Of a stretch of 24,690 nucleotides of DNA, positions 734-10,620 are shown in pieces (within the stretch, counting starts at the first letter, position 1; every line of letters starts with the position of its first letter). The notes beneath the pieces are model-generated. The model saw nothing but the letters and a program-made list of their open reading frames with translations. It was not told where the DNA came from and ran no database searches. This stretch comes from Bacteroidales bacterium (GTDB lineage Bacteria; Bacteroidota; Bacteroidia; Bacteroidales; VadinHA17). Location: contig PMIG01000234.1 in the NCBI GenBank assembly GCA_003157055.1, forward strand, positions 1,845 to 26,534. The letters are read 5' to 3'. Made by a program: the position numbers and the translations under genes.

Positions 734-2467
734 ATGAAAAGAATTTACAATATTTTACTTGGACTGGCGATTGCAATCTATTTGTTTTCCGCATGTACGA
801 GAAAGCTTAATCCTTCTCATTATACGGGAACAAAAGAAAATTCATATGATTCGTCAGCTGCAGAATATGTATATATTGAAGCGGTGAAGCAAAAATTGCT
901 TGGCAATGCAGGAGATGCTATTAAATTGTTCGAGCAGTGTATAAAATCCGATCCGTCAAATGACGCTGCATATTTTCAGATCTCGCAGATACTCATTGGC
1001 ACTGGCGATATTAATAATGGGAAAAAATACGGACTTAGGGCACATGAACTGAACCCCGATAATTTCTGGTATACAATTATGCTAGCTGGAACTTACTACC
1101 AGGAGAAAAACCTTGACAGTGCAATTATCTTCTATGAGAAAGCAGTTAAAGGATTTCCTGAAAAGGAAGATTTACAAATAAACCTTGGAAATTTGTATGC
1201 AGAAAACAACAAGCTTGAAAAGGCATTGCAGGTATTCGAAAATCTGGACAAAAAATATGGAATTAACGAAACATCTACTCCATCAGGAGTAAAGGTATTA
1301 ATGGCAGAAGGCAAGTTCCAGGAAGCAGAAGACAGGGTAAAGAAGCTTATAGAAAAATTCCCGGATGTAATTCTTTACAGCGGTCTTTTGGCTGAGATCT
1401 ACAATAACAATAAGGAAAACGTGAAGGCTTACGAGGTCTATAAGGACCTTATAAGAAAAAGCCCGGACAATCCTGAAACGCAAATGTCACTTTGTAACTT
1501 TTTTTTAGATCAAAAAAACTATAATGAGCTGCTTCTGTTATTAAACAAGGTAATCCTAAATAATGATATTAAAAGAGAAGATAAAATAGGTTTATTTTCC
1601 AAAATTATCGAAAGCCCGGAACTAATAACAGCGAAGGGAAATGAACTGCAGTTGGCATGTATGATAATGGAAGCGGCTTATAAAGATGACGACATTGTTT
1701 TATTACTAAGACCTGAATTTTTAACAGCTGAAAAAAAGCTGAATGAAGCTGCTGCAAGACTTGAGGAGATAATCATTAGCAGGCCCGACAATTATTACGC
1801 GTGGGAGAAACTTCTGTTTGTTTATCTTGAAGAAAAAGACTATAAAAAGCTCCAGGAAAAAGGCGAATTATGTGCTACCAGGTTTAACAGATCATTCCCG
1901 GCTAAGTTACTTTACGCAACTGCTGCCGTTGAAAACAAGCAATACGATATTGCAATTGAGGAGTTAAGAAAAGCCAATATTCTGGCCGGGGATGATAAGG
2001 ACATGCTGTTACAGGCTCTATCATTGCAGGCAGATGTATATTACAGGATGAAAGAGTATGATAAATCATTTAAAGCATTTGATGATGCACTTAAACAGAA
2101 TCCAAATGATGTTACCTTGCTAAATAATTATGCTTATTACCTTGCAGAACAGAACACAAGGCTAAAAGATGCTGAAAAAATGGCCCGGAAAGTAATTGAA
2201 ACTGAAAAAGAGAATACTACATTTCTTGATACTTATGGATGGGTTTTATACAAAAGAGGAAAGCTTAATGAAGCTGCAAGAGTTATGGAAAATGTAATTA
2301 AAATCGGGAAAGAAACAGACGCAGAATGGTACGAGCATTACGGATATATATTAAAAAAGAAAAACGATTGTTCCGGTGCTGTAACTAATTGGAACATTGC
2401 GATTAAAATCGATTCCTCGAAAACTAATTTGATTAAAGAAATACAAAAATGTCAGGGAGACCGCTGA
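734..2467 (+). CDS. Tetratricopeptide-repeat lipoprotein
   Basis: A 577-residue protein from the ATG at 734. An upstream in-frame TTG at 716 would add six residues, but the ATG is preferred because it directly opens a clean lipoprotein signal (MKRIYNILLG, hydrophobic core, lipobox FSAC with Cys21). The mature part is alpha-helical, with repeated TPR-like units such as AAYFQISQILIGTGDINNGK and NPNDVTLLNNYAYYLAEQ, and a strong run of TPRs near the C terminus (DTYGWVLYKRGKLNEAARVM). TPRs mediate protein-protein contact, so this is probably an outer-membrane or periplasmic scaffold. Its stop overlaps the start of the DUF4292 lipoprotein by 19 bases, indicating co-translation with that gene and the EnvC-like gene. 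No enzymatic motif is seen and the exact partner is unknown. Confidence 0.9.
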   Translation: MKRIYNILLGLAIAIYLFSACTRKLNPSHYTGTKENSYDSSAAEYVYIEAVKQKLLGNAGDAIKLFEQCIKSDPSNDAAYFQISQILIGTGDINNGKKYGLRAHELNPDNFWYTIMLAGTYYQEKNLDSAIIFYEKAVKGFPEKEDLQINLGNLYAENNKLEKALQVFENLDKKYGINETSTPSGVKVLMAEGKFQEAEDRVKKLIEKFPDVILYSGLLAEIYNNNKENVKAYEVYKDLIRKSPDNPETQMSLCNFFLDQKNYNELLLLLNKVILNNDIKREDKIGLFSKIIESPELITAKGNELQLACMIMEAAYKDDDIVLLLRPEFLTAEKKLNEAAARLEEIIISRPDNYYAWEKLLFVYLEEKDYKKLQEKGELCATRFNRSFPAKLLYATAAVENKQYDIAIEELRKANILAGDDKDMLLQALSLQADVYYRMKEYDKSFKAFDDALKQNPNDVTLLNNYAYYLAEQNTRLKDAEKMARKVIETEKENTTFLDTYGWVLYKRGKLNEAARVMENVIKIGKETDAEWYEHYGYILKKKNDCSGAVTNWNIAIKIDSSKTNLIKEIQKCQGDR

Positions 2468-3201
2468 TATTTCTTTTTTTAATCCTATTTACTAATTGTT
2501 CTGCTTTAAAAACAGGCAAAACAATTACTGAACAGATCAACAACCCCTGTTTTGAGCTCGCAAATGTTAAAAATCAGAATTTGTCTGCTAATGATTTTAA
2601 TATAAAGAAGGCTGAGATAGAGATTAATATTGACAATGAGAAACAAAAGCTTCTGGCTTCAGTTAAGTATAAAACACCGGGAAGGTGGCTTATCTGTCTT
2701 AAAAGTAATACTGGTATTGAGGTTGCCAGAGCATTTATAACGGTCGACACTTTATTGATAAATGACAGGCTGCATAAAAAGCTGTATTATGGGAGTATAA
2801 GATCAATTGAAAAGAAATGCGGAATACCTTTTATTACACTACCTGTCCTTTTTGGCGATTTTATTGCAGGGAATGTTTCCATAAGGGATTCTGCTAAATG
2901 TATTGATGGAAGAGATATGAAGACTTTTAAATTTGGAGAAAGTGAAATAGAATATTTATTAAGCTGCAAGGATAATAAAATTATTAGTTCAAAGATAAGA
3001 AGACCTGGGGGTAATGAAATTCAGGTATCATATTCGAAAATGAAATTAGTTAATAAATACAAATATCCGGCAAGACTAATAATAAGAGATCCTTCAGAAA
3101 AATGCATTTTAGAAATAAAGATCAGAAATATAGAATTTAAGAATATTGAAAAAGTTGATTTTATTCCTGGGAAAGGATATAATTATATATTACTGAAGTG
3201 A
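2449..3201 (+). CDS. DUF4292-type lipoprotein
   Basis: A 250-residue lipoprotein. The short signal (MSGRPLIFLFLILFTNC, Cys17) is preceded by no better start, and the ATG overlaps the TPR gene by 19 bases. The body alternates short hydrophobic strands (IEINIDNEKQKLLASVKYK, ARLIIRDPSEKCILEIKI), as in the uncharacterised DUF4292 family of Bacteroidota. Assignment rests on length, lipobox, strand pattern and the characteristic place between a TPR protein and an EnvC-like protein. A lipid-binding LolA/LolB-like fold is possible, but that is inference. Its TGA overlaps the GTG start of the next gene (GTGA), so the three envelope proteins are probably made together. Function is unknown; a role in outer-membrane or cell-wall biogenesis is suggested only by context. 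Confidence 0.75.
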   Translation: MSGRPLIFLFLILFTNCSALKTGKTITEQINNPCFELANVKNQNLSANDFNIKKAEIEINIDNEKQKLLASVKYKTPGRWLICLKSNTGIEVARAFITVDTLLINDRLHKKLYYGSIRSIEKKCGIPFITLPVLFGDFIAGNVSIRDSAKCIDGRDMKTFKFGESEIEYLLSCKDNKIISSKIRRPGGNEIQVSYSKMKLVNKYKYPARLIIRDPSEKCILEIKIRNIEFKNIEKVDFIPGKGYNYILLK

Positions 3202-4376
3202 AGCTGAAATTACTATTTACTATTATTTTGTTATGTTGTTATGCCATCGCTATAGGCCAGACAAGGGGCGAATTGGAAGAACAAAGAAAGAAAACACTGG
3301 AGGAAATTACATATGTTGACGGCCTTTTAAAGAATACTGAAAAGCAAAAAAGTGAAAGCATAAACTCGCTTAAAATTCTAGGGCAAAAAGTAAACCTGAG
3401 AGAATCGGTTATTTCAGGAATGGGACAGGAAATAGACTTGCTAAATGAACGAATTGATATTAACAGACAGGCTATAGATATGATGGAGAGTGATTTAAAA
3501 ATATTAAAGGAAGATTACTCCAGAGCAATCATTAATTCTTATAAATCAAAAAAGATAAATCCGGACATAGTTTACATTTTATCTGCCAGAGACTTTAATC
3601 AGGGATATAAACGACTTAAATATTTGCAGCAGGTATCTAAATTCAGGAGAAACGAGTCAGAAGTAATTTCTCAATTGAAGCTTGAAATAGTAAGTACAAA
3701 GGAAAAACTGGAGAATGATCTGGAAAGGATTTCTGATTTGAGACATAAAGAAGTTCAGCAGAAAGAAATTCTGGTGGGTGAGCAACAAAGAAAAACTAAA
3801 GTTGTTAAAAACCTTGGTAACAAGGAGAAACAACTAAAAAAAGAGCTGGAAGAGAAGAAGATTATTGCTGATCGGATTGAAAAGGCGATAGCGAAAATAA
3901 TTGAAGAGGAAAGGAAAAAAAGCATAAAAAATGAGCTTACACCGGAACAAAAACTTATTGGTGAAGATTTTTCAGTGAATAAGGGAAGATTGCCATGGCC
4001 GGTAGAGAAAGGAATAATAACAAGTCATTTTGGAGTGCACAAGCATCCTGTATTAAAATATGTTACTGAAAACAACTTTGGGATTGAGATAACAAGCTCT
4101 GGAATGAATTTAGCAAGAAGTATATTTAAAGGCGAAGTAACAGCTATAACTGCCATTTCTGGTGCAAATATGACAGTAATAATAAGACACGGAATTTATT
4201 ATTCAGTATACACAAATCTGGTAAATGTGAAAGTAAGAAAAGGAGAGGAAGTTAATACGAAGCAGATTATTGGAGAAGTTTATCAGGATCCTTCTGCAAG
4301 CAATAATTCAACAATAAAATTCATGATTTTTGAAAAACAATATCTGGATCCTGAATTATGGATAGCAAAAAACTGA
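3198..4376 (+). CDS. envC: EnvC-like murein hydrolase activator with degenerate LytM (M23) domain
   Basis: A 392-residue exported protein. The GTG start overlaps the previous stop (GTGA) and opens a signal peptide ending AIAIGQ. Residues about 22-250 are a long charged coiled coil. Residues about 264-388 form a LytM/M23 fold recognised by LPWPVEKGIITSHFG, a KGEVTAI segment, IIRHG and a C-terminal LDPELWI. The metal ligands of active M23 peptidases are largely missing: HxGID is N293-F-G-I-E297, YaHL is YTNL, and the HxH of HLHFE is replaced near FMIFE. Loss of zinc ligands plus a coiled coil is the signature of EnvC, which activates N-acetylmuramoyl-L-alanine amidases at the division septum instead of cutting peptidoglycan itself. 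The amidase partner is not in this window. Confidence 0.88.
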   Translation: MKLKLLFTIILLCCYAIAIGQTRGELEEQRKKTLEEITYVDGLLKNTEKQKSESINSLKILGQKVNLRESVISGMGQEIDLLNERIDINRQAIDMMESDLKILKEDYSRAIINSYKSKKINPDIVYILSARDFNQGYKRLKYLQQVSKFRRNESEVISQLKLEIVSTKEKLENDLERISDLRHKEVQQKEILVGEQQRKTKVVKNLGNKEKQLKKELEEKKIIADRIEKAIAKIIEEERKKSIKNELTPEQKLIGEDFSVNKGRLPWPVEKGIITSHFGVHKHPVLKYVTENNFGIEITSSGMNLARSIFKGEVTAITAISGANMTVIIRHGIYYSVYTNLVNVKVRKGEEVNTKQIIGEVYQDPSASNNSTIKFMIFEKQYLDPELWIAKN

Positions 4377-4430
4377 TATGAACTGAAACAAATTTTAATT
4401 TATTAAGTATAAAGAATCTTATTTGAAGCA

Positions 4431-4835
4431 ATGCTCAAACAGCTTACAATAGAATCTGATATAACCAATCTCAATATGGTTGAAAATGCAATTGATTCGT
4501 TGACAAATGAGATTGGTATAAGTCAGGATAATTATGGAAAAATACTGGTTGCTGTACTGGAAGCTGTTAATAATGCAATAATACATGGGAATAAAGCAGA
4601 TTCAAAAAAAACGGTTGAAATAGATTTTTGGGTGAAAAAGAAAGATTTGAATATTTCTGTAACAGACAAAGGAAAAGGATTTAAACCGGCCGAAGTACCG
4701 GATCCTACCAAACCGGAAAATATTGAAGCAATAAATGGAAGGGGGATATTTCTGATGTCTAAGCTTGCAGATGCAATAGAATTTAATAAAAGAGGAAACA
4801 GCGTTACAATGATATTTAAAAATATAACACCTTGA
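4431..4835 (+). CDS. RsbW/SpoIIAB-like ATP-binding protein (HATPase_c_2)
   Basis: A 134-residue cytoplasmic protein made of a single GHKL ATPase domain. Visible motifs are the N box (E44, N47, N48, then HGN), the G1 box DKGKGF (D79, G81, G83) and the G2 box NGRGIFLMSKLADAI. This matches stand-alone anti-sigma-factor/serine kinase proteins of the RsbW type. The frame starts at an ATG 54 bases after the EnvC-like stop, and its last codons overlap the TTG start of ybeY (TTGA). In Bacteroidota such an ATPase commonly precedes ybeY and mnmG; its target is not generally known. No anti-anti-sigma factor or sigma factor lies nearby, so calling it an anti-sigma factor would go beyond the evidence. Confidence 0.85.
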   Translation: MLKQLTIESDITNLNMVENAIDSLTNEIGISQDNYGKILVAVLEAVNNAIIHGNKADSKKTVEIDFWVKKKDLNISVTDKGKGFKPAEVPDPTKPENIEAINGRGIFLMSKLADAIEFNKRGNSVTMIFKNITP

Positions 4836-5254
4836 AAACAAGGATATTTTATGATGGTATAAAGTACAGGTTAAAGAATAGCAGGAAGGTACTGAAATTA
4901 ATTGAAAAGGTTATCGGGGAATACAGAAAGCCCAGAGGTAGCCTTTCTTTTATTTTAGTAAGCGATGAAGAATTGATAAAAATCAACAGGGAATTTTTGC
5001 AACATAACTATTTTACTGATGTTATTGCTTTTGATTATGGTAAAAGTGATTTACTCGATGGTGAAATTTATTTAAGTCTGGATACGATTAAATTAAATGC
5101 CTTTAACTATAATGTTAGTTTAAGAAATGAGTTAATAAGAGTAATGATTCATGGGACACTTCATCTTTGCGGATTCAAAGATTCAACTAAAAGTGAAAAA
5201 GGAAGAATGACAAGGCTTGAGAACAAATGGATTTTAAAATTAAAGTTGAATTAA
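4832..5254 (+). CDS. ybeY: Endoribonuclease YbeY (rRNA maturation factor)
   Basis: A 140-residue UPF0054 protein. YbeY is a metal-dependent RNase acting in 16S rRNA 3'-end maturation and ribosome quality control. The core is present: FTDVIAFDYG, DGEIYLSLDTIKLNA, and the metal-binding helix HGTLHLCGFKD with H107 and H111. The third ligand, His in HxxxHxxxxxH of E. coli, is Asp117 here, as I recall for other Bacteroidota homologues. The start is taken as TTG at 4832, overlapping the ATPase stop as TTGA; no in-frame ATG lies close to the N terminus that would keep the first strand (TRIFYDGIKYRL). The stop codon directly abuts the mnmG ATG with no gap, consistent with coupled translation. Confidence 0.92.
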   Translation: MKTRIFYDGIKYRLKNSRKVLKLIEKVIGEYRKPRGSLSFILVSDEELIKINREFLQHNYFTDVIAFDYGKSDLLDGEIYLSLDTIKLNAFNYNVSLRNELIRVMIHGTLHLCGFKDSTKSEKGRMTRLENKWILKLKLN

Positions 5255-7129
5255 ATGGATTTCAGATATGAAGTAATAGTAGTTGGGGGAGGTCATGCCG
5301 GATGTGAAGCAGCTCATGCTGCTGCGAAGATGGGAGCAAGAACCTTGCTTGTGACAATGGACATGACAAAGCTGGCACAAATGTCGTGCAATCCTGCAAT
5401 GGGTGGAATCGCAAAAGGACAGATTGTAAGAGAAATTGATGCATTAGGTGGATTGAGCGGGATCATTACCGATCGAAGCATGATACAATTCAGAATGCTT
5501 AATAAGTCGAAAGGTCCTGCAATGTGGAGCCCAAGGGCTCAATGCGACAGGCAAAAATTTACGAGCGAGTGGAGAAAAGAACTGGAACAAACAAAAAACT
5601 TGCATATATGGCAGGAACAAGCGAAAAAGATAATTATTGATAATAATAGGGCAATAGGAATTGAAACATCTTTTGGTAATAAGTTTTATGGAGATGCTGT
5701 CATTTTAACAAATGGAACTTTTCTTAATGGATTGATGCATGTGGGGCTTACAATGGTAAATGGAGGAAGGTCAGGAGAATCTGCGTCAATAGGTTTAAGC
5801 GAACAAATAAGAAATATGGGATTTCAGGTTGAAAGAATGAAAACCGGAACAAGCGCAAGAATTGACGGAAGGACAATTGACTTTAATTCGATGGTTGAAC
5901 AGAAGGGAGATGGAGAAGGTAGATCATTTTCATATAAGAACAATATTTTGAAAATTCAAGACCAGATGAGCTGTTTTATTACTCATACTAACGAGGAGGT
6001 TCATAAAGAAATAAAAAAGGGAATGGAATTTAGTCCTTTATATACAGGAAGAATTAAAGGAATTGGACCAAGGTACTGCCCTAGCATAGAAACAAAAATT
6101 ATAACATTTAAAGATAAAGAGTCTCACCAGCTGTTTATTGAACCAGAAGGACGGGATACTATTGAATATTACGTAAACGGGTTTTCAAGCAGCCTTCCTC
6201 TGGAAACACAGATAAATGCATTAAGAAAAGTAAAGGGACTTGAAAATGTCGAGATATTCAGACCTGGATACGCAATAGAGTATGACTTTTTTCAGCCTAC
6301 CCAGCTTAAAAACAGCCTTGAAACAAAAATGATTAAAAACCTTTATTTCGCAGGACAGATTAATGGAACCACTGGATACGAAGAAGCTGCCGCCCAAGGT
6401 TTAATAGCAGGCATTAATGCAACATTAAAAATAAGAGGAAGAAATAAATTTGTGCAAGGTCGGGACGAATCTTATATTGGAGTTTTGATTGACGACCTGG
6501 TAACAAAGGGTGTTGATGAACCTTACAGGATGTTTACATCCAGAGCGGAGTACAGGATTTTACTTAGGCAAGATAATGCTGATGAAAGATTGACCAGAAA
6601 GGGATTCAATTTGGGATTAGCAGAAAAGGAAAGGATAGAGATTCTGGACGAAAAAGAAAAAATGGTAAATGAAATAATGACATTCCTTAGAAAGGAGACA
6701 GTAGTACCTGAAAAGATTAATAATTGGTTAAGAAAGAAAAAAACATCTGAAATTAAGCAGAAAACAAAAGCCGTTAACATTGCTGCCAGACCACAGATTG
6801 AATTAAAAGAACTTATGGAAAATATAAAAGGATATAAGAAGTTGTCAGCTGTGAATTCTGAAAGGTTCAACGAGATTGCAGAATCTGCAGAGATCAGGAT
6901 TAAGTATAAAGGATATATTTTAAGAGAGAAACTTATGGCTGATAAAATAAGTAGATTGGAAAATTTAAAAATTCCTGAAGAGATTAATTATAGTGAACTA
7001 GTCTCAATTTCAACAGAGGGAAGACAAAAACTAGAAAAAATTAAACCTGAGAATATAGGACAAGCTGGTAGAATAAGCGGCGTCTCTCCTTCCGATTTAG
7101 GAATTTTGCTTATGTATTTGGGCAGATAA
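5255..7129 (+). CDS. mnmG: tRNA uridine-5-carboxymethylaminomethyl(34) synthesis enzyme MnmG (GidA)
   Basis: A 624-residue FAD protein, close to the usual length of about 620-630. With MnmE it installs the cmnm5 modification at wobble U34 of tRNAs. The N terminus carries the FAD-binding VVGGGHAGCEAA (GGGHAG at residues 11-16), followed by SCNPAMGGIAKGQIVREIDA, a strongly conserved MnmG stretch. Further family marks are MKTGTSARIDGRTIDF, the central GRDTIEYYVNGFSSSLP, and FAGQINGTTGYEEAAAQG, which closes the FAD site. The C-terminal helical tRNA-binding part (TSRAEYRILLRQDNAD, then ISTEGRQKL and GRISGVSPSDL) is intact. It starts immediately after ybeY. A perfect parS-like palindrome begins two bases past its stop; mnmG is classically near the replication origin in many bacteria. 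Confidence 0.98.
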   Translation: MDFRYEVIVVGGGHAGCEAAHAAAKMGARTLLVTMDMTKLAQMSCNPAMGGIAKGQIVREIDALGGLSGIITDRSMIQFRMLNKSKGPAMWSPRAQCDRQKFTSEWRKELEQTKNLHIWQEQAKKIIIDNNRAIGIETSFGNKFYGDAVILTNGTFLNGLMHVGLTMVNGGRSGESASIGLSEQIRNMGFQVERMKTGTSARIDGRTIDFNSMVEQKGDGEGRSFSYKNNILKIQDQMSCFITHTNEEVHKEIKKGMEFSPLYTGRIKGIGPRYCPSIETKIITFKDKESHQLFIEPEGRDTIEYYVNGFSSSLPLETQINALRKVKGLENVEIFRPGYAIEYDFFQPTQLKNSLETKMIKNLYFAGQINGTTGYEEAAAQGLIAGINATLKIRGRNKFVQGRDESYIGVLIDDLVTKGVDEPYRMFTSRAEYRILLRQDNADERLTRKGFNLGLAEKERIEILDEKEKMVNEIMTFLRKETVVPEKINNWLRKKKTSEIKQKTKAVNIAARPQIELKELMENIKGYKKLSAVNSERFNEIAESAEIRIKYKGYILREKLMADKISRLENLKIPEEINYSELVSISTEGRQKLEKIKPENIGQAGRISGVSPSDLGILLMYLGR

Positions 7130-7131
7130 AC

Positions 7132-7147
7132 TGTTCCACGTGGAACA
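7132..7147. promoter_or_regulatory. parS-like ParB-binding site, perfect palindrome
   Basis: TGTTCCACGTGGAACA is a perfect 16-bp palindrome that exactly fits the widespread parS consensus TGTTNCACGTGNAACA. It lies in the 45-base gap between mnmG and the adenine deaminase gene. The match is seen directly; ParB binding is inferred from established knowledge of chromosomal parS. It could in principle act as a short hairpin terminator, but no T-rich run follows directly on either side. Confidence 0.82.
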
Positions 7148-7174
7148 AATTTATTTAAAACATATTTTATTTTT

Positions 7175-8794
7175 ATGAAACTGAAAGGTTTGCTTATTGA
7201 TATACATAAGAGAAAAATATTTCCCGCGATAATTACTATAAAAAACGGAAAGATCGGGAATATTGAATTGAATAAAGGAAATGAAGGTAATTTTATTCTT
7301 CCTGGGCTTATTGATTCCCATATTCATATTGAAAGCTCTATGGTATCTCCTGGTTCTTTTGCGATGGAAGCTGTTTCACGTGGAACTATAGGTGTGGTTT
7401 CTGATCCACATGAGATAGCAAATGTACTGGGAACAGACGGAGTAAACATTATGATTGAAGATGGAGAAAAAGTTCCGTTAAAATTCTGGTTTGGTGCACC
7501 ATCCTGCGTTCCCGCCACTAAATTTGAAACTTCAGGAGCAAAAATAAATAGCGCTGGAATAAAAGAACTTTTAAGTAGAAAAGAGATAAAATACCTATCC
7601 GAAATGATGAATTATCCGGGTGTTATTTTAGGGGATAATGAGGTAATGGAAAAAATTAAAATTTCAATCGATAAGGGAAAGCCGGTAGACGGACATGCAC
7701 CAGGATTAACAGGTGAAGATCTGAAAAGATATGTCGCTGCAGGGATATCAACAGACCATGAGTGTAGCACAATTGAAGAAGCAAGAGAAAAAATTAGTCT
7801 GGGTATGAAGATTCTGATAAGGGAAGGAAGCGCTGCAAGGAACCTTGACGCATTGAAGGAACTCTATAAGACAAACCCACAGGATTTAATGCTTTGCAGT
7901 GATGATCTTCATCCTGAAATGTTAATGAAAAGACATATAAACAAATTAATTTCAAAACTGGTTTCTGAAGGATACGACCTTTTTGATGTAGTTAGAAGCG
8001 CAACCATAAATCCGGTATTTCATTATGGGCTGGAGGCAGGACTGTTGAGGATTGGAGATCCTGCAGACTTCATTATTGTTGATGATCCGGGGAAAATGAA
8101 TGTGCTGGAAACATGGATAGATGGGAAAAAAGTCTTTGAAAAAGGCAAGACAACTTTTAAAAATAAATTCGGCAAAAGTCAGAACAAATTTAATTGTTCT
8201 GAAATACAGGAAGAAAGCATTGCTATTAAGTTAACAGGGGGGAAAATAAGAATTATAGAGGCTTTTGACGGGGAACTATTGACAAAGGAGATAATCAGGG
8301 AATTGCCGGCAGAGAAAGGCATTGAATCAGATACGGAAACCGATATGCTTAAAATTGTTGTAAAAGACAGGTATAATGATGCTCCTCCGGCAGTCGGATT
8401 TATTAAGGGATTTGGACTGAAGAAAGGTGCATTTGCCAGCTCTGTGGCACATGATAGTCATAATATAATTTGCATAGGTACAAGAGATTCTGATATAGCC
8501 GCCGCGATAAATGAAGTAGTGAAAATGAAGGGTGGTCTTGCCGTTGTGAACGAAGGGAATATAGAAACACTAAAACTTCCCATCGCCGGGATCATGTCAG
8601 ATAGACCAGTCAGTGAAGTTGCTGATAAATATGCGTCACTTTCCTCTCTTGTAAAATCACTCGGATGTAGAATGTCAGCTCCGTTCATGACTCTCTCATT
8701 TATGGCATTGCTGGTAATACCGGAGCTAAAGCTCAGCGACAAAGGACTCTTCGACGGTCGTAAATTCGAACTCGTGCCATTGTTCGTTGATTAA
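7175..8794 (+). CDS. ade: Adenine deaminase
   Basis: A 539-residue amidohydrolase that hydrolyses adenine to hypoxanthine and ammonia in purine salvage. It has the Ade pattern: an N-terminal beta domain ending in LPGLIDSHIHIESSM (metal ligands H49, H51; E53), then SRGTIGVVSDPHEIANVLG, PVDGHAPGLTGEDL, AAGISTDHECS, and CSDDLHPEML with the metal-binding Asp. The remaining C-terminal domain (about 340-539) includes AVGFIKGFGLKKGAFASSVAHDSHNIICIG and GGLAVVNEG, also typical of Ade. The length fits the family range of roughly 540-590. The start ATG lies 27 bases past the parS-like palindrome. A second parS-like site lies inside its own coding region at 7372-7387. It sits between mnmG and uvrC, a place that, as I recall, holds apt in Bacteroides. 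Confidence 0.95.
   Translation: MKLKGLLIDIHKRKIFPAIITIKNGKIGNIELNKGNEGNFILPGLIDSHIHIESSMVSPGSFAMEAVSRGTIGVVSDPHEIANVLGTDGVNIMIEDGEKVPLKFWFGAPSCVPATKFETSGAKINSAGIKELLSRKEIKYLSEMMNYPGVILGDNEVMEKIKISIDKGKPVDGHAPGLTGEDLKRYVAAGISTDHECSTIEEAREKISLGMKILIREGSAARNLDALKELYKTNPQDLMLCSDDLHPEMLMKRHINKLISKLVSEGYDLFDVVRSATINPVFHYGLEAGLLRIGDPADFIIVDDPGKMNVLETWIDGKKVFEKGKTTFKNKFGKSQNKFNCSEIQEESIAIKLTGGKIRIIEAFDGELLTKEIIRELPAEKGIESDTETDMLKIVVKDRYNDAPPAVGFIKGFGLKKGAFASSVAHDSHNIICIGTRDSDIAAAINEVVKMKGGLAVVNEGNIETLKLPIAGIMSDRPVSEVADKYASLSSLVKSLGCRMSAPFMTLSFMALLVIPELKLSDKGLFDGRKFELVPLFVD
7372..7387. promoter_or_regulatory. parS-like site inside the adenine deaminase gene
   Basis: TGTTTCACGTGGAACT keeps the CACGTG core and matches TGTTNCACGTGNAACA at every fixed position except the last base. 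It starts 240 bases after the start of the perfect site at 7132. It encodes part of the conserved AVSRGTIG segment, so the sequence is constrained by protein as well. Chromosomal parS sites within genes are common. Confidence 0.6.
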
Positions 8795-8811
8795 ACGGAA
8801 TTCACAGATCT

Positions 8812-10599
8812 ATGTCGGTCGAACATAAAAAAATATTACCCTTAATTCCCGATAAGCCCGGTGTTTACCAGTTTGTAGACTCTTCGGAGATTATTATTTA
8901 TGTGGGGAAAGCAAAAAACCTCAGGAAGCGGGTTTCTTCATACTTCAATAAAAACCAATCGGGTAAAACAACGGTAATGCTGAAGAAGGCAGCCAACATC
9001 AGACATATTGTTGTGGACAATGAATCAGATGCACTTTTACTTGAGAACAACCTTATTAAGAAACTACAGCCCAGGTATAACATACTTTTAAAAGATGATA
9101 AAACCTACCCATGGATATGCATAAAAAACGAGCATTTCCCCCGGGTTTTCAGCACGAGAAATACTATAAAAGACGGCTCTTTATACTTTGGTCCATATAC
9201 ATCTGGCCTGATGGTTAAGACCCTTGTTGATCTGGTGCGGCAGCTTTATAAGCCAAGAACCTGCTTTCTTAACCTTACAAAGGAAAACATATCAGCCGGA
9301 AAATTCAGGCCTTGCCTTGAATACCATATTGGCAACTGCCTGGCCCCATGTGTCGGTTTTCAGACAGAAGAGGAGTACAATGAAAATATCCAACAGCTTA
9401 AAAATATTCTGAAAGGAAATATTTCAACGGTATATGAACACCTGAAACAGGTAATGATAAAATATTCTGTAGGGCTTCAGTTCGAAAAAGCGCAATTGAT
9501 CAAAGAAAAGATCGACTTGATTTCAAAATACAGGAGCAAGTCTTCCATTGTAAGCTCGACTATAAAAAATGTTGACGTATTTGCTATTAGCCAGGACATC
9601 GACAACTCATACATTAACTATCTGAAAGTGGTTAACGGTGCTGTTATTCAGGCTTTTACACTTGATATTAAAAGCCGCGTAGATGAGGACAAAGAGTCTC
9701 TGCTTGGTTTTGCAATAACAGAGATAAGACAAAGATTATCAAGCGATTCACCAGAAATAATTGTCCCGTTTAAACCCGATATTCTTCTTGAAAAAATCAA
9801 GTATACCGTTCCCGTAATTGGCGACAAGATAAAACTCCTTGAGCTGGCTTCCCGAAACGCCATCTATTATAAGCTTGAGCAGCGCAAGAAACATGAGGTC
9901 GCAAAACCAAAGGATCGCACAGGAAAAAACCTTGAACGGCTGAAATCAGATTTACATATGGCAGAAATGCCTGTTCACATTGAGTGTTTTGACAATTCGA
10001 ACATAATGGGCACTAATCCGGTTGCGGCCTGCGTGGTTTTCCGGAACGCCAGGCCAAGCAAGAAGGATTACCGTCACTTCAACATAAAAACCGTTACGGG
10101 GCCGGATGATTATTCGTCTATGGAGGAAATTGTATTCAGACGGTATAAAAGAATGATTGAGGAAAATCAGAAGCTTCCGCAGCTGGTGATAATCGATGGG
10201 GGCAAAGGACAGCTTTCCTCGGCAGTGAAAAGCCTTGATAAACTTGGTTTAAAGGATAATCTGACAATTATAGGCATTGCAAAAAAGCTTGAAGAGATTT
10301 ATTTCCCTGGCGATTCAGTTCCTCTGTACCTGGATAAAAATTCAATAAGCCTTAAAATAATTCAGCAACTAAGGAATGAAGCCCACCGGTTCGGGATAAA
10401 TTTTCACCGTGAAAAAAGATCATCAGGGATGATGAAGTCGGAACTGGATGAAATAAAAGGGATAGGTATAAAAACAAAAGAAATTTTATTGAAGGAAATC
10501 GGTTCTCCGGACAAAATCAGAAAATGCTCATTCATTGAACTCGAAAAGCTTATCGGAACTAAAAAAGCGGAGATACTTACCACATACCTCCATAAATAA
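8812..10599 (+). CDS. uvrC: UvrABC excinuclease subunit C
   Basis: A 595-residue protein of usual length. UvrC makes both incisions flanking a DNA lesion in nucleotide excision repair. The N-terminal GIY-YIG nuclease is intact (GVY at 17-19, YVGKAKNLRKRVSSYF from residue 30, with R40). A UVR motif for UvrB binding is visible around VGLQFEKAQLIKEKIDLI. The C-terminal RNase H-like nuclease shows CFDNSNIMGTNPVAACVVF, DDYSSMEEIVFRRY, LVIIDGGKGQL and HRFGINFHREKR, providing the expected Asp and His catalytic residues. A helix-hairpin-helix region (LDEIKGIGIKTKEILL) ends the protein. It starts 17 bases after ade. Codon choice is visibly richer in C than in mnmG upstream. Confidence 0.98.
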   Translation: MSVEHKKILPLIPDKPGVYQFVDSSEIIIYVGKAKNLRKRVSSYFNKNQSGKTTVMLKKAANIRHIVVDNESDALLLENNLIKKLQPRYNILLKDDKTYPWICIKNEHFPRVFSTRNTIKDGSLYFGPYTSGLMVKTLVDLVRQLYKPRTCFLNLTKENISAGKFRPCLEYHIGNCLAPCVGFQTEEEYNENIQQLKNILKGNISTVYEHLKQVMIKYSVGLQFEKAQLIKEKIDLISKYRSKSSIVSSTIKNVDVFAISQDIDNSYINYLKVVNGAVIQAFTLDIKSRVDEDKESLLGFAITEIRQRLSSDSPEIIVPFKPDILLEKIKYTVPVIGDKIKLLELASRNAIYYKLEQRKKHEVAKPKDRTGKNLERLKSDLHMAEMPVHIECFDNSNIMGTNPVAACVVFRNARPSKKDYRHFNIKTVTGPDDYSSMEEIVFRRYKRMIEENQKLPQLVIIDGGKGQLSSAVKSLDKLGLKDNLTIIGIAKKLEEIYFPGDSVPLYLDKNSISLKIIQQLRNEAHRFGINFHREKRSSGMMKSELDEIKGIGIKTKEILLKEIGSPDKIRKCSFIELEKLIGTKKAEILTTYLHK

Positions 10600-10604
10600 C
10601 GCTG

Positions 10605-10620
10605 GATTCCACGTGGAACA
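10605..10620. promoter_or_regulatory. parS-like site downstream of uvrC
   Basis: GATTCCACGTGGAACA matches the perfect site at 7132 in 14 of 16 positions, differing only in the first two bases. The inner TTCCACGTGGAA is fully palindromic. It begins five bases past the uvrC stop. The ParB-binding role is inferred from the consensus and from the two other sites nearby. Confidence 0.65.

Follow-up and report, generated by a model that had tools for sequence, protein, structure and literature searches.

The 24,690-nucleotide stretch of Bacteroidales DNA analysed here (the window) contains three 16-bp sites that, judging from sequence evidence, are very probably chromosomal parS centromeres belonging to a ParABS system whose ParB would act in trans. 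The type of site is already known; its arrangement is unusual. An initial annotation had described a perfect 16-bp palindrome right after mnmG, with two near-matches in the next 3.5 kb. A motif scan bears out the palindrome and its position and finds both near-matches; the sites and the genes around them are the following.

Putative parS site 1, 7132-7147: TGTTCCACGTGGAACA, between mnmG and ade, 2 bp past the mnmG stop codon (motif scan, 0 mismatches)
Putative parS site 2, 7372-7387: TGTTTCACGTGGAACT, in ade codons 66-71 (A-V-S-R-G-T) (motif scan, 1 mismatch)
Putative parS site 3, 10605-10620: GATTCCACGTGGAACA, 5 bp past the uvrC stop codon, one outer half-site decayed (motif scan, 2 mismatches)
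mnmG (gidA), 5255-7129, + strand: conserved neighbour of site 1 (Pfam GIDA, 6.9e-164; NCBIfam TIGR00136, 816 bits)
ade, adenine deaminase, 7175-8794, + strand: hosts site 2 (Pfam; NCBIfam TIGR01178, 598 bits)
uvrC, excision nuclease subunit, 8812-10599, + strand: upstream neighbour of site 3 (Pfam UvrC_RNaseH_dom, 5.1e-54)

With 0, 1 and 2 mismatches, the three sites are close to the 16-bp palindrome TGTTTCACGTGAAACA with a CACGTG centre that characterises parS. The exact core TTYCACGTGRAA occurs three times in the window, with a mean of 0.02 in shuffled sequences, and none of 100 shuffles reaches three; when up to 3 mismatches are allowed, three window matches are only mildly unusual (four of 100 shuffles reach three). 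As had been claimed from the start, no parA, parB or dnaA is present among the 19 window ORFs scanned with Pfam, a set from which four right-end ORFs (119-276 aa) and overlapping antisense ORFs were left out. An Rfam search of the window gave no match.

Partner genes elsewhere in the genome

The window comes from contig C325 of a 78% complete draft genome (G000), which totals 2.73 Mb in 398 contigs. The nearest named relatives of its MnmG come from Bacteroidales metagenome-assembled genomes, that of locus L303 (fen_984) being 91% identical. A genome scan at up to two mismatches, the check first proposed, proved non-discriminating, with 9 matches against 8 for the reversed control. Since this loose scan is no better than its control, the exact core was used instead, which gives 4 matches genome-wide against 1 for the control, three of them in the window within 3.5 kb. 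parS is expected in few copies grouped within a single chromosomal region, and the 4 exact cores in 2.7 Mb fit this. The fourth core, at C384:2197, is on a 3-kb contig bearing uvrC-HAD-PFK, a second copy of the window locus. This repeat (L009), which has its own parS-like site, probably stems from a second strain or from contamination of the draft.

The proposal that a ParB encoded elsewhere acts on the sites in trans is supported by a lone parA-parB operon on another contig, by the parS-type residues of its ParB, and by conservation of the sites at the DNA level in relatives, including inside coding sequence. A profile search revealed one parB (TIGR00180) in the genome, on contig C98, where it directly follows parA (258 aa) in an operon; an exact-core scan found no core site on this contig, and dnaA is on contig C9. 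At positions 173, 179, 184 and 201 (Caulobacter numbering) the ParB has Arg, Tyr, Lys and Gly. R173 and G201 are called absolutely conserved in ParB orthologs in the passages of PMC7383237 available to us. Both are present in all 23 ParBs compared; the operon on C98 pairs parA with an R173/G201 ParB. The GERR and ENIQR motifs also occur in this ParB; their count of 23/23 is by construction, because the motifs served to pick the frames.

The same residues bear on whether another palindrome-binding protein, for example one of Noc type or a local regulator, binds the sites instead of ParB. The best NCBIfam match of the ParB is indeed the Noc model TIGR04285, at 233.8 bits and below the cut-off of 315, its best PDB matches are Noc chains, and it has Lys184 as Noc does. 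However, Noc with its NBS sites is marked by Q173, K179, K184 and R201, and the protein reads R, Y, K and G at these positions, with Arg and Gly at 173 and 201 where Noc has Gln and Arg. Furthermore, a single TIGR00180 gene per genome was found in all 22 genomes tested, parB being found in all 23 including our own, and a local regulator fails to explain why several classes have the same 16-mer at mnmG and few exact copies of it in other places. Binding by such a protein is in our view highly improbable, and ParB is kept as the protein that would recognise the sites.

SMC (TIGR02168) and ScpB (PF04079), which a ParABS system coupled to SMC-ScpAB should have in its genome, were not found in G000 (78% complete) or in G011, G030, G023 and G050, four same-order relatives that are 98-99% complete. 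Over the 23 genomes they are missing together in nine (these five with G088, G116, G154 and G162) and present together in the same 14; in one search at most 19 candidates per genome were scored, and this condensin result covers SMC and ScpB. For Bacteroides ihuae, a control, neither the SMC nor the ScpB search was positive. As the two proteins were not found in our genome and its four same-order relatives, the sites probably serve ParA-driven partition and not condensin loading. According to the passages of PMC10197239 available to us, no condensin homologue was found in Bacteroides caecimuris and Muribaculum intestinale, which have parS clusters at the inferred origin.

Conservation beside mnmG and inside ade

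The exact 16-mer TGTTYCACGTGRAACA is found in 47 of 60 relatives (our own genome included), with an mnmG match in 57 of the 60. The site lies within 1 kb of mnmG in 46 of these 47 and within 100 bp in 43, and 58 of the 61 sites are within 1 kb. In a draw across the phylum, 87 of 118 genomes carry the exact 16-mer and 31 do not, the reversed control occurring in one genome. Among the matches listed, which cover 44 of the 87 genomes (19 from the window's class, our own included, and 25 from a single family of another class), a site comes within 1 kb of mnmG in 41 of the 44, and 72 of the 75 sites are that close. The exceptions among the 44 are G123 and G084, with site and mnmG on separate contigs, and G131, in which they are 25.5 kb apart.

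The core is similarly present in all 30 mnmG loci of relatives (our own included) and in 28 of the best-scoring 30 mnmG loci of the phylum draw, four scrambled cores giving 0/30. Out of 63 named mnmG loci it occurs in 59, and in 57 a core starts 6-20 bp beyond where the mnmG match ends; the loci without it are L296 (clostridial), L291 (distant Bacteroidia), and L292 and L307 (contigs ending within mnmG). All 114 cores of the named set fall between -2.5 and +4.5 kb of mnmG, and four scrambled-core controls in the same 1.05 Mb give 0, 0, 1 and 0 matches.

In 34 loci, counting the window, a site of the site 3 type, TTCCACGTGGAAC, follows mnmG at a distance of 1.9 to 4.2 kb, mostly as GTTTCC or TTTTCCACGTGGAACA. 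Since it is kept in 34 loci, the 2-mismatch site 3 is a real, asymmetric member of the family. Its type stands directly after uvrC in the window and on C384, the two places where uvrC was annotated and on which this position rests.

Two other placements were observed. A further core about 2145 bp before mnmG in L271, L274, L276, L288, L290, L294 and L300, within an open frame reading M-F-H-V-K-L, is TGTTTCACGTGAAACT in six of these loci and TGTTCCACGTGAAACT in L276. In G076, an exact parS 16-mer lies within the mnmG coding sequence (G076:C1:1086925-1086940).

At site 2, inside ade, a constraint acts at the DNA level. We compared the codons of 48 ade genes aligned at this site (window included), leaving out loci without ade aligned there. 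The core is present in 13 of them, all reading V-S-R-G-T with codons GTT TCA CGT GGA AC(A/T); the remaining 35 have His (33) or Gln (2) instead of Arg, and their codons vary. Among the 13 core-bearing genes, 116 ade columns hold an invariant residue for which at least three codons exist, and four of these columns use a single codon, namely the V, S, R and G of site 2. Four single-codon columns placed at random among the 116 would hit site 2 about once in 7 million, a figure that ignores relatedness, although relatedness acts on all ade columns alike. In L248, L255, L278 and L295, ade has V-P-H-G-T encoded by GTT CCA CAT GGA ACA, His being kept one base off a perfect site. On an mnmG tree of 45 rows (L293, L299 and L300 were left out for stops in the mechanically cut mnmG frame), the ade-core label needs 4 changes, against a shuffled mean of 11.4, and one origin of the ade core followed by losses is possible. 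Moreover, the solved structure of a distant adenine deaminase (3nqb) reads Ala-Arg-Gly at the site 2 position, thus Arg is tolerated there. The freezing of these ade codons provides a clear example of how a DNA signal overrides codon choice in an enzyme gene.

Sites 1 and 3, located after the mnmG and uvrC stops, could also be read as intrinsic transcription terminators with a 6-bp stem and a 4-nt loop. In the window they begin 2-5 bp past a stop codon, and a terminator scan reports the hairpin at 7132 on either strand; however, its total of 6 such sites, with 5.0 expected, is at chance level. Over the first 70 nt after mnmG in the 63 loci, the loop is ACGT in 51 of 57 unmasked perfect hairpins (six have other loops), and no constant T-run follows the hairpins. 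In addition, 38 of 48 loci have the ade alignment starting 30-53 bp beyond the mnmG match, which leaves little room to stop transcription, and a terminator would not freeze codons within ade. With a fixed ACGT loop, no constant T-run and a scan count at chance, the intrinsic terminator was rejected, and we give it hardly any credence beside the reading of the sites as parS.

Position relative to the origin

The locus had also been proposed to be origin-proximal. With our genome split into 398 contigs, no skew plot can be drawn for it. For six complete same-class genomes, each sampled at 20 stretches of 20 kb, we computed GC skew, fourfold-site GC skew, gene-strand bias and AT skew, as well as sums of these measures. 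In five of the six, at least one GC measure places the inferred origin near the sites; the measures do not all agree, and the one trusted in each genome was chosen after the results were known. Expressed in % of genome length, its distance from mnmG by GC and fourfold GC is 1.1-4.9 in G116, 0.8-4.8 in G154 and 2.0-3.8 in G162; the two measures agree in these three, plain GC in G162 not being significant (p 0.11). The distance in G088 is 0.4-3.3% by fourfold GC and 5.1 or 17.1% by plain GC depending on the fit, fourfold AT placing the origin opposite. For G092 it is 1.5-5.1% by plain GC, and GC skew, strand bias and sign-flipped fourfold AT skew agree, fourfold GC being opposite and not significant (p 0.50). 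Gene-strand bias also agrees in G092 only in this set, being 10-12% off in G154 and disagreeing in G116, G162 and G088. The sixth genome, G061, disagrees on every measure, its skew-inferred origin being 41-46% away and nearly opposite the sites.

In one long same-order contig, G050:C3, gene strand and GC skew are negative from 40 to 340 kb, positive from 620 to 980 kb and mixed between. The site is at 423 kb and fourfold skew shows no clear difference, which makes a loose fit to an origin nearby. In the window's order (named loci and our own contig), skew keeps its sign over the 10 kb on either side of mnmG; fourfold skew over this range, compared with L296 (Clostridia) left out, is positive to the left and right of the gene, with the higher values on the left, the right exceeding the left in 4 of 34 loci. 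Within the window, GC skew is strongly positive over 1001-9000 (up to 0.33) and falls to about zero past 9 kb, and the fourfold-site skew of relatives is likewise higher on the window's 1001-9000 side. The sequence TTATCCACA, which we take to be the DnaA box, forms no cluster at any distance around mnmG in the 63 named loci and the window, so no oriC is pinpointed. Support for origin proximity is thus indirect: the skew-inferred origin is near mnmG in five of the six complete same-class genomes by at least one GC measure and nearly opposite in G061, and no local sign change within ±10 kb accompanies it in the order. For the window's own organism, these relatives suggest that the origin may be near.

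In all 18 complete genomes parB and mnmG are at least about 300 kb apart (the G061 value), the distance being for example 884 kb for G116 and 1.29 Mb for G154. In five of the six complete same-class genomes dnaA is also far from mnmG (749 kb in G116, 1.42 Mb in G154), the exception being G061. On G061:C1 the two genes are about 14 kb apart with the skew minimum nearly opposite, which could reflect an inverted polarity or a relocation of the origin. In other classes the complete genomes vary: dnaA is at most about 30 kb from mnmG in some (e.g. G122, G111, G132 and G089) and at least 150 kb away in G064, G102, G118, G124 and G171.

A parB and often a dnaA far from mnmG, the skew minimum of G061 and the lack of a local skew flip in the window's order would all fit a relic, in which the sites mark a former parABS or origin place and the working origin and centromere are now elsewhere. 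Decay would be expected of a relic, yet site 1 is kept in 57 of the 63 named loci and site 2 is under codon-level constraint; moreover, by at least one GC measure the origin inferred in five of the six complete same-class genomes is close by. We hold the relic to be very unlikely.

Proposed role and known systems

ParB produced from the parA-parB operon elsewhere on the chromosome would load at the 16-bp sites and spread across the flanking mnmG-ade-uvrC region using CTP, and the resulting complex would be moved by ParA, so that sister origins separate. Binding, spreading and ParA-driven movement are predicted here from sequence. On a larger scale, we lean modestly towards a view in which mnmG-parS has been an anchored centromere since the Bacteroidota ancestor. 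It would have stayed at the origin while parAB (and dnaA too, in the class of the window) shifted by hundreds of kb and SMC-ScpB disappeared from one large branch. Selection on the sites would have reached into coding sequence, fixing ade codons and going along with Arg instead of the usual His.

dnaA is a common landmark for the origin. In five complete same-class genomes dnaA is far from the skew minimum and mnmG-parS is near it; if the view above is true, mnmG-parS marks the origin in draft genomes of the window's class better than dnaA. A landmark bound to the origin would help replication-rate estimates from metagenomes as well as Hi-C on gut and environmental Bacteroidota. These bacteria would also be a natural test of ParABS without condensin, since the sites are kept where SMC and ScpB were not found and the role of parS without condensin is directly testable there. 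In titles and abstracts of the open-licence literature, which has partial coverage, we found neither a parS-mnmG/gidA link in Bacteroidota, which may already be in the Livny 2007 survey, nor an ade codon freeze.

Compared with ParABS of the Bacillus and Caulobacter type, the sites have the same 16-bp palindrome with a CACGTG centre and form a cluster of several, and one ParB with R173/G201 adjoins parA. Unlike in these systems, the sites stay with mnmG and show no linkage to parAB, or to dnaA in five of the six complete same-class genomes. In Bacillus, parS has a condensin-loading role, which seems absent here, as searches in the order turned up neither SMC nor ScpB.

The closest comparison is with Bacteroides caecimuris and Muribaculum intestinale (PMC10197239), for which the available passages describe a parS cluster at an inferred origin that is not always at dnaA. 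That origin was derived from skew and coverage, the skew shift nearer the parS cluster being taken as the origin. In contrast to our case, mnmG/gidA is absent from the text of that study (0 occurrences), and the available passages contain no phylum-wide linkage or sites in coding sequence. Finally, the ancestral origin gene set, given in the accessible part of PMC2099444 as parA, parB, gidA, gidB, dnaA and others, places gidA (mnmG) among the genes often near the origin. Our results differ from this set in that mnmG and parS are found together, with parAB and often dnaA elsewhere on the chromosome.
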